DNA of 64,000 bases from Teichococcus coralli (GTDB lineage Bacteria; Pseudomonadota; Alphaproteobacteria; Acetobacterales; Acetobacteraceae). Below are positions 10,970-12,647 of this stretch, in pieces. Location of the stretch: NCBI RefSeq assembly GCF_009829925.1, contig NZ_SNVJ01000004.1, forward strand, positions 62,001 through 126,000. Reading direction: 5' to 3'. The position numbers and the translations under genes are program-made. Position 1 is the stretch's first letter; the number at the start of each line of letters is the position of its first letter. Under the pieces are notes generated by a model. That model was not told the origin of the DNA, did not search any database, and saw only the letters and a program-made list of their open reading frames with translations.

Positions 10970-11756
10970 GGAGAGGGGTGCCGGGAAGCCACGAACCCGG
11001 TGCCGCCCGGGCGGGCGAAGGATCGCGCTCGCCCCGCCTTCGTCGTCCCCGCTTCGTCAACCCGGAACCGCGGGCGTCGTGCGCGCGTGGTGTTGCCATG
11101 ACAACACACCTGGGCGGGCCGGAAAGCGGCGCGTGAATCTCTCCTCCTGAAACGAACGCGCCGTGCTGTTCACAGAGTTGGGCGGGCTGCGGAGAATGAG
11201 ACTTTCAATTCCTTGGCGCGGAAATTCAGCAAACGCGCCTTGTTCTGAGACTTTGACTCGTGGGCCGGAGTAATCCTCCGCTGTCGAAGCGGCTCAGATC
11301 CGCCAGCCCTCCAAAGCCCGGCGGAGGGGACCTTCTCTGGCGGCTTGCGGGAACCCGGCGCTGGCATGGCGAGAAGGTGGTTCTTCTCGAGGCGAGAAGG
11401 AAGCTTCGCGGCTCTGGTTCCGGCCGGCAGCGTCCAGGAGTCCTGATGCGGAAAGGGGGTTCGTCAGCCGCACGTCCCGACGCTGATGGTCTGCTGTTGA
11501 AACGATCCCATCTTTTCGACGTCCGTCTAAAATTCCAGGAATTGCCGTTTCGAAAGATACTATAGCCACCGGGCGACCTTCTGCGCTGCCTTCAAGACAA
11601 CACCGGGAAAAGCAGGGGATTGCTACGAAAAATCCCTTGCGAGTGTTCAACCCCAGCTAGATTATCTTGTTTATCACGGATTCGTGAGTTAACCTCTGCT
11701 TGTTGGAGCCAGGAGGCTCTGACCTTCACCGCCAGCGAAAATCGCAAGGACGGGCC
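10970..11756. other. 787-bp gene-free region, locally AT-richer
   Basis: No gene is supported here. From about 11190 the DNA is visibly less GC-rich than its surroundings. It contains a 13-bp palindrome AATTCC-A-GGAATT at 11531-11543. At 11689-11694, 68 bp before the CtrA-like gene, is TTAACC followed by CTCTGCTTGTT, resembling one half of a CtrA box (TTAA-N7-TTAA). The second half is degenerate. Short frames on both strands have no coding character. Confidence 0.45.
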
Positions 11757-12539
11757 ATGTACATTCTCCTCGCCAGCATCTTTGAGGATAAGTCGCGGTT
11801 GCGGGACAGCCTGATCCAAAAAGGATATGGCTGCGACCTCGCCCTCCCGTTCGCGGAGACGGCCGCGATCGCCCAGCACAGCGGGCCCTATGACGTCATC
11901 CTGCTGGAGGTGGACGAGATCCGCCTGCAGGCGCTGGCGATCCTGCGGGACATCCGCCGCCGCGGGGTGCAGGCGCCCGTTCTCGTTCTCGGAACGGCCC
12001 CGACGCATGACGAGGAGGTGGCGGCGCTGGAATTCGGCGCGGACGACGTGCTGCGCCGCGCCGTGCCGCTGGCGCTGCTGCATGCCCGGATGCAGGCGGT
12101 GCTGCGGCGCGGCTGCGGGCATGCCAGCGCACAGCTTCGCTGCGGCAACGTCGTGCTGGACCACACCCGCCGCACCGTGGCGGTGGATGATCGCCCGGTC
12201 CGGATCACCTGCCGCGAGTTCGACGTGCTGGAAATGCTCATGCTGCGGCGCGGCACGCTGCTCACCAAGGAGCACTTCATGGCCCGCTCCTACGGTGCCG
12301 AGGATGGGCCGGACCAGCGCATCCTCGACGTGTTCGTCTGCAAGCTGCGCCGCAAGCTGGCGGCCGCCGGCTCCGCCGAGATCGTGCGCACCATCTGGGG
12401 GCGAGGCTATGTGCTGGAGGAGCCGACCCCCGCCGCCCTTGAAGCGGCACGGCTGCGCTACCAGGCCGCGGCCCCGCGCACCCCGCGGGCACATCCCGGC
12501 CTCGGTGCAAGCGGCGGCCTGGCGATGGCCGTCGCCTGA
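11757..12539 (+). CDS. CtrA-like response regulator with degenerate receiver domain
   Basis: OmpR-type DNA-binding regulator of 260 residues. Residues ~125-225 form a winged helix close to the CtrA cell-cycle regulator: EFDVLEMLMLRRGTLLTKE, ILDVFVCKLRRKLAA and IWGRGYVLEEP. The receiver (1-115) keeps the fold but has lost its chemistry. Position 51, Asp in CtrA, is Glu (LLEVD); the acid pocket EDD at 7-9 is Ser-Ile-Phe; the Lys-Pro pair is Arg101-Ala102. It is therefore unlikely to be phosphorylated normally. AAGGA precedes the ATG. A 35-residue Ala/Pro-rich tail follows the DNA-binding domain. It is monocistronic with its own terminator, and no kinase is adjacent. Its targets are unknown. Confidence 0.85.
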   Translation: MYILLASIFEDKSRLRDSLIQKGYGCDLALPFAETAAIAQHSGPYDVILLEVDEIRLQALAILRDIRRRGVQAPVLVLGTAPTHDEEVAALEFGADDVLRRAVPLALLHARMQAVLRRGCGHASAQLRCGNVVLDHTRRTVAVDDRPVRITCREFDVLEMLMLRRGTLLTKEHFMARSYGAEDGPDQRILDVFVCKLRRKLAAAGSAEIVRTIWGRGYVLEEPTPAALEAARLRYQAAAPRTPRAHPGLGASGGLAMAVA

Positions 12540-12607: not shown

Positions 12608-12647
12608 GCCGGCCTTCTCCCGATGGAGAGGGCCGGCTTCTTGTTTT
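12608..12647 (+). terminator. Rho-independent terminator of the CtrA-like gene
   Basis: A 13-bp stem (GCCGGCCTTCTCC at 12608-12620 with GGAGAGGGCCGGC at 12625-12637, one G-T pair) closes a CGAT loop and is followed by TTCTTGTTTT. It lies 69 bp after the regulator's stop codon. Confidence 0.85.

Follow-up and report, generated by a model that had tools for sequence, protein, structure and literature searches.

A CtrA-derived regulator with a dismantled phosphorylation site in Teichococcus coralli, and the flagellar gene neighbours of its relatives

The gene, its signals and its protein

The stretch analysed, hereafter the window, is 64 kb of Teichococcus coralli DNA (assembly GCF_009829925.1, contig NZ_SNVJ01000004.1, positions 62,001 to 126,000). 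It contains a gene for an OmpR-type regulator of 260 amino acids, whose coding part spans 11757-12536 and whose features are collected in Table 1. Four neighbouring genes are annotated in the source genome, for an M81 metallopeptidase, an aldehyde dehydrogenase and two parts of ABC transporters; no histidine kinase was found among these four.

Table 1. Features of the regulator gene and its flanks (positions in the window)
Feature	Position	Strand	Remarks
Inverted repeat TCACG-N4-CGTGA	11674..11687	.	upstream of the gene, just before TTAACC
TTAACC, proposed half-box	11689..11694	+	not conserved in orthologues
Leader GCGAAAATCGCAAGGA, possible 4-bp hairpin joined to the Shine-Dalgarno sequence	11735..11750	+	orthologue comparison, folding
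CDS of the CtrA-type pseudo-receiver regulator	11757..12539	+	260 aa plus stop, ATG start
Receiver-like domain, residues 1-118	11757..12110	+	receiver fold without phosphorylation pocket
Codon 51, GAG (Glu), phospho-acceptor position	11907..11909	+	sequence and alignment
CtrA-type winged-helix DNA-binding domain, residues 126-222	12132..12422	+	Pfam, NCBIfam, alignment, model
C-terminal tail, residues 223-260	12423..12536	+	predicted helix 225-238, low-confidence end
Intrinsic terminator, 13-bp stem and T-rich tail	12608..12647	+	stem 12608-12637

The protein passed the Pfam model Trans_reg_C (65.4 bits, cut-off 26.2) and missed Response_reg (25.4 bits, cut-off 30.2). Its top NCBIfam model was that of CtrA, NF045991, the best of 44 matches, with 172.5 bits where the cut-off is 350; no Rem/FtcR model was present among the best 25 of the 44. 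In the AlphaFold2 model (mean pLDDT 86.8, below 50 at residues 242-260), a receiver and a winged helix are followed by an additional C-terminal helix; the receiver fold is also borne out by PDB matches to residues 1-125. The best full-length structural match was CosR on DNA (Z 23.0, rmsd 3.2, 216 aligned), followed by PmrA on DNA (Z 22.7). This fold search was a re-scoring of Foldseek's own matches, mostly receiver domains, and the absence of a structure from it is uninformative. Short Ala/Val-rich C-terminal tails were seen in many members of the clade described below, as in the canonical CtrA of the genus; going by the known turnover of CtrA, we assume that they could be ClpXP degrons.

The ATG start codon and the Shine-Dalgarno sequence were kept across close orthologues. 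An 11-nt core of the leader, GCGAAAATCGC, was found unchanged in 12 of the 38 clade members, both paralogue groups included, with unconserved DNA around it, and the hairpin with its ribosome site occurs a single time in the genome. Folding of the 33-nt hairpin stretch was modestly better than that of shuffled sequences (z −2.3), and that of the 79-nt leader no better (z −0.35). Downstream, the strong terminator of its own that the sequence-only reading had given to the gene was recovered, with 10 GC among its 13 pairs and the tail TTCTTGTTTT. Leader hairpin and terminator together would fit a control of the amount of regulator. The inverted repeat is more conserved than the neighbouring TTAACC, being kept in the four Glu51 genomes of the lineage and partly in the four Asp51 ones; five such sites were counted genome-wide, compared to one for the reversed control, and it may possibly be bound by some regulator.

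Descent from CtrA and loss of the phosphorylation site

In Alphaproteobacteria, CtrA is the textbook case of a cell-cycle regulator controlled by phosphorylation. A canonical ctrA, which the sequence-only reading had advised to look for, was found elsewhere in the same genome, on contig C12 (L002). Its product scores 369 bits on NF045991, which passes the cut-off of 350, so that the window gene is not the only CtrA of the genome. In the alignment, L002 keeps E7-D8-D9, D51 and K101-P102 intact, whereas the window protein has S-I-F, E and R-A at these places, exactly as read from the letters alone. The two receivers are 26% identical and the two DNA-binding domains 50% (over 100 positions), and the recognition-helix region is almost CtrA-like (IIDVFICKLRKKL versus ILDVFVCKLRRKL in CtrA). 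The two thus have in common an OmpR-type architecture, a DNA-recognition region and, as shown below, a supported ancestry. The window protein nevertheless falls short of the family's bit score and lacks all the residues named. Judged from these comparisons, it is of CtrA-lineage descent and yet no CtrA by the family's own criteria.

TTAA is the core of the CtrA box. The hexamer TTAACC upstream of the gene had been proposed as a half-box hinting at autoregulation or at control by canonical CtrA. It is indeed there, and it holds the single TTAA of the window, where 9.5 are expected from dinucleotide shuffles and 0.7 from trinucleotide counts. The regulatory hint did not stand: the 90%-identical orthologue of G014 reads GTAGCT at this position, the Asp51 lineage also lacks the hexamer, and TTAA was not enriched in the 300 nt upstream of the 38 clade genes (13 observed, 15.6 expected). 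Genome-wide, TTAACC was counted 77 times versus 225 for its reversed control. On the lack of conservation and of enrichment and on these counts, TTAACC was rejected as a CtrA box. TTA and TAA are both avoided in the 64-kb window, matching the rarity of TTAA. GGTTAA or its complement was found within 100 nt before flgK in 3 of 6 flagellar clusters, a result reached by 0 of 20000 mononucleotide shuffles; such shuffles ignore neighbouring bases, and we retain it as a weak lead only. The longer GGTTAAC precedes flgK in only 3 of the 6 clusters. These promoter counts yielded no established binding site for the regulator, a point against the explanation that we prefer below.

Because the recognition-helix region is so nearly that of CtrA, overlapping binding sites are plausible, and the regulator could be an antagonist of canonical CtrA, acting as a repressor or a decoy at shared sites instead of an activator. 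The rarity of TTAA in the window and its lack of enrichment upstream of the clade genes speak against such a role, which we consider unlikely.

Relatives of the regulator were searched in three genome samples. In the genus, the gene is present in 7 of 17 genomes, the source genome (G000) included, with identities of at least 56%. In the family, 33 of 397 genomes matched at 1e-46, and 31 were left after G259 and G288 were dropped, as their receivers are intact and group with CtrA. In the class, 17 of 385 genomes matched at 1e-45, one of them the source genome; of the other 16 matches 11 were inspected, and all 11 have an intact CtrA receiver. Since the inspected matches are canonical CtrA, the clade appears confined so far to the family of the source genome (Roseomonas and kin). 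Divergent members escape these thresholds (G381_2 and G385_2 came to light solely as neighbours), and the counts of carriers are therefore lower bounds; the family searches scored six candidates per genome, by which matches may also be missed. All seven of the closest named relatives from the species-genome collection bear the title Roseomonas or Pseudoroseomonas; NCBI now files them as Roseomonas/Teichococcus in Roseomonadaceae, Acetobacterales.

In a tree of 58 proteins, 38 members formed one clade (95/92) which joined the CtrA group (99/97), to the exclusion of the genome's other OmpR-type regulators and of Rem. A second tree, with 22 of the 38 members and five Rem-like proteins, gave 100/99 for the clade and 100/97 for clade plus CtrA group. 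On these trees the pseudo-receiver clade is sister to CtrA. Together with the NF045991 match and the 50% identity, they bear out the claim of a CtrA-type DNA-binding domain.

Further paralogues were observed. L033 (G011:C9:23037-23570) is likewise a CtrA paralogue whose receiver has degenerated, having E-E-K at 7-9, Gly at 51 and Ala-Pro at 101-102; it groups with canonical CtrA, outside the clade, and represents a second, independent receiver loss in the genus. Within the clade, paired members lie side by side on opposite strands in G381 (L128, 335-1108 on the minus and 1572-2315 on the plus strand) and in G385 (L115, 3001 on the minus with 4025 on the plus strand), the second member being far more diverged in both pairs. 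In G208 and G396 (L118, L119), two members about 9 kb apart flank one flagellar cluster; each pair has one Glu51, the other member having Ala51 in G208 and Ser51 in G396.

Among the 38 aligned members, a set which leaves out canonical CtrA, Rem and other regulators and counts identical proteins once, residue 51 is Arg in 12, Glu in 8, Asp in 8, Ser in 3, Gln in 3, Val in 2, and Ala and Leu in one each. No member has an acidic residue at position 7 or a Lys at 101 (0 of 38 for both). Within the genus, Glu51 is found in G000 and G014, Asp51 in G004, G005, G012 and G015, and Gln51 in G002; among named relatives, P. oryzae (GAA) and P. vastitatis (GAG) have Glu, and Roseomonas sp. MO-31 has Ser. 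A sequencing error at codon 51 was ruled out by the same GAG in G014 and by the Glu of P. oryzae and P. vastitatis. Orthologues with Asp51, which the sequence-only reading had taken as a sign of such an error or of a recent mutation, do exist in the four genus-mates, but these lack the pocket as well.

The Asp51Glu form of CtrA is an activating one. The Glu of the window protein had accordingly been read as a natural phosphomimetic, locking a CtrA-like protein in its active state, in which it would compete with CtrA-P at CtrA boxes. The 50% identity of the DNA-binding domains agrees with this, and Glu51 is common to a supported lineage of four genomes (99/93 in the 58-protein tree) and recurs in the paralogue group G381/G208a/G396a/G385. 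In section 18 of PMC12632262, Glu is also reported to be the most frequent residue at the acceptor position of receivers that lack the aspartate, and to mimic phosphorylation partially in many regulators. Against it, residue 51 changed at least nine times, including to Arg and Val, on a tree of 27 rows (22 clade rows and 5 CtrA-type rows), and sister lineages with Asp, Gln, Ser, Arg, Val, Leu or Ala have the same dismantled pocket, close Asp51 relatives among them. A mimicking Glu is thought to act via two contacts, a conserved T and K (same section of PMC12632262). The Lys is gone in 38 of 38 members, as is the acidic residue 7, and a Thr or Ser is left at position 79 in 9 of 38, the window protein having Gly. 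We consider a phosphomimetic very improbable, and as a defining trait of the clade it was ruled out, residue 51 varying freely.

A variable residue 51 next to a lost pocket is, in our reading of the alignment, a site without its old function, and not a conserved mimic. The whole clade consists of pseudo-receiver proteins, and a phosphorylation-independent regulator is supported. With the receiver dismantled and canonical CtrA encoded separately, phosphorylation by the CckA relay is implausible, in line with the absence of CckA control suggested before; control by level or by a partner is the natural alternative.

Selection was estimated between G000 and G014, where dN/dS is 0.13 for the receiver and 0.05 for the DNA-binding domain; the canonical CtrA of these two genomes has no replacements in either domain. 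The receiver evolved faster than the DNA-binding domain in 10 of 10 clade pairs, with dN/dS of 0.43 and 0.52 in the two more distant pairs. By these ratios both domains are under purifying selection in the G000-G014 pair. The faster evolution of the receiver also fits a slow decay.

Flagellar genes beside the regulator in related genomes

The loci of 34 genomes were searched by tblastn (E up to 1e-5) with flagellar proteins of the clusters and of S. meliloti; flanks were only about 1.5 kb long at 10 of the 34 loci, and some others end with the contig. The regulator adjoins flagellar genes in 14 of the 34 genomes, a lytic transglycosylase only in 15, and neither in 5 (G000, G014, G078, G152 and G385). 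The last two counts are points against the explanation preferred below, as is the Asp51 kept in 8 of 38 members. The most complete arrangement, with flgK-flgL, lytic transglycosylase, regulator, motB-motA and flgE in this order, was found in G002, G012 and G015. At the other extreme, an FlbT-like gene is the sole flagellar neighbour in P. oryzae, P. vastitatis, MO-31/G297 and G273. The transglycosylase of the 15-genome group is 58-70% identical to one lying within the clusters of G396 and G208.

A similar picture was obtained from MotA. The MotA type of the cluster is present in 6 of the 17 genus genomes (G002, G003, G004, G005, G012, G015); five have the regulator adjacent to it, and a run of N occupies this place in G003. 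Among the 34 genomes, MotA lies beside the regulator in 9 (G002, G004, G005, G012, G015, G110, G208, G301, G396), 7 of which have two MotA matches. In the 397-genome sample, the regulator was found in 10 of 16 genomes with two MotA matches versus 21 of 381 others (Fisher p 1e-8, uncorrected for kinship); among those 10, it lies beside a transglycosylase and not MotA in G221, G281 and G307, and beside FlgK in G381. The flagellar linkage of the clade is a new finding of these genome comparisons, and it is not visible from the window alone.

In the source genome the situation is different. When 24 query proteins of the flagellar clusters were compared with the 64-kb window, no match was found except that of Rem, on the regulator itself, and a flagellar role there is consequently argued from relatives. 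The single MotA match of G000 is of the other type (49% identity), and G014 likewise has only this other type. The matching MotA being absent and the neighbours unrelated, the regulator is an orphan in its genome. It could then be a relic, decaying after the second flagellar cluster was lost and without present function in the source strain. Its retention in G000 and G014 without the MotA type of the cluster would fit, as would the lack of any flagellar neighbour at the source locus and a receiver less constrained than the DNA-binding domain. The genus can also do without the regulator: 9 of its 17 genomes, one just 71% complete, show neither the regulator nor the MotA type. However, the intact frame, the conserved leader and Shine-Dalgarno sequence, the terminator and the low dN/dS of both domains between G000 and G014 point to continued purifying selection, and we hold a relic to be rather improbable.

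Comparison with Rem and proposed mode of action

A close parallel is Rem of S. meliloti, also an OmpR-type regulator in a flagellar cluster, adjoining a lytic transglycosylase and near motB and flgE-flgK-flgL, as in relatives of the window gene. Rem reportedly lacks the aspartate and is active without phosphorylation (excerpt of PMC9812332), and it is inhibited by MirA (excerpts of PMC12632262 and PMC9812332). Rem-like regulators have also been described in Brucella (FtcR) and Azorhizobium (ActR), and FtcR-like regulators lie near motility genes (PMC8639532, in part). The order motB-motC-fliK-transglycosylase-rem-flgE-flgK-flgL was found in S. meliloti and Phyllobacterium; at those loci the regulator is annotated merely as a response regulator, and was called Rem on the strength of its position and identity. 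In Microvirga, a more distant Rem-like protein sits away from flagellar genes.

There are differences, though. S. meliloti Rem keeps D7, D8 and K101, which the clade lacks or mostly lacks, its DNA-binding domain is unlike that of CtrA, and its gene order differs from that of the clade clusters. A joint group of clade and Rem was rejected (p-AU 0.017, with 22 of the 38 clade members and 5 Rem-like proteins), a value to be read with caution as branches are long and the group was named after the first tree had been seen. In this first tree the single Rem had a branch of 3.75, and four more Rem-like proteins were then added. Orthology to Rem was rejected on this test. As far as sequence tells, the window regulator works like Rem but is not Rem.

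CosR, which we take to be an atypical response regulator, and the pseudo-receiver regulators ChxR, HP1043 and GlnR are likewise of OmpR-type fold with an incomplete phosphorylation site; these four are not known to derive from CtrA, and they have other regulons. The regulator looks like a CtrA-derived form of the pseudo-receiver OmpR-family regulators. Among the literature matches listed, no description of a CtrA-derived pseudo-receiver clade was recognised. In Cereibacter sphaeroides, a CtrA-type factor is tied to Fla2, one of two flagellar systems (excerpt of PMC11999139); there it is CckA/ChpT/CtrA that acts, whereas here a paralogue without phosphorylation site lies inside the cluster. CgrA of Rhodospirillum centenum was considered as a lead on CtrA paralogues and dropped.

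If phosphorylation does not switch the protein, something else might. The pseudo-receiver could be a sensor: by binding a small ligand, a flagellar protein or an anti-activator, it would switch DNA binding, much as Rem is switched by MirA, and activity would then not be set by expression alone. The predicted intact receiver fold and the purifying selection on its sequence are both consistent with a sensor. Against it, no ligand pocket was identified. We regard this as possible, short of probable.

Our preferred explanation, which we think is probably correct, is an orphan, phosphorylation-independent transcription factor derived from CtrA, from a clade most likely dedicated to a flagellar cluster. 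The lineage would have split from CtrA and retained its type of DNA-recognition domain, by which we infer that the regulator binds and activates its targets. Its receiver would have become a pseudo-receiver, which kept the fold, may dimerise or bind a partner, and should escape phosphorylation. The ancestral job of the clade was most likely to regulate flgK-flgL / lytic transglycosylase / regulator / motB-motA / flgE, a cluster that often forms the genome's second flagellar system. The regulator would act when made. As with Rem, its output would depend on transcription, translation and turnover or on an anti-activator, and CckA-ChpT would have no part in it. In the source genome it would have been retained as an orphan, acting perhaps on the remaining flagellar system or on other CtrA-type promoters.

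More broadly, we tentatively suggest, as an idea with a fair amount in its favour but not yet a probable one, that an aspartate-less flagellar master regulator arose at least twice in Alphaproteobacteria, once as Rem/FtcR in Rhizobiales and once from the CtrA lineage in the Roseomonas family. The second would free one flagellar system from CckA-ChpT-CtrA, and in lineages of the source type it would have outlived its flagellum and been rewired. If true, the regulator would in both cases have come to lie next to hook and motor genes and a lytic transglycosylase. The mechanisms which switch bacterial pseudo-receivers are called a mystery in a 2025 review (PMC12632262, in part). The clade offers a natural series at the acceptor position (Asp, Glu, Gln, Ser, Arg, Val, Leu, Ala) for asking whether this residue matters in a pseudo-receiver, and, given the likeness to Rem, flagellar control would be well suited for studying why phosphorylation is lost from receivers. 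CtrA paralogues which keep the DNA-reading head without the phosphorylation site suggest a route by which flagella may be uncoupled from the cell cycle.
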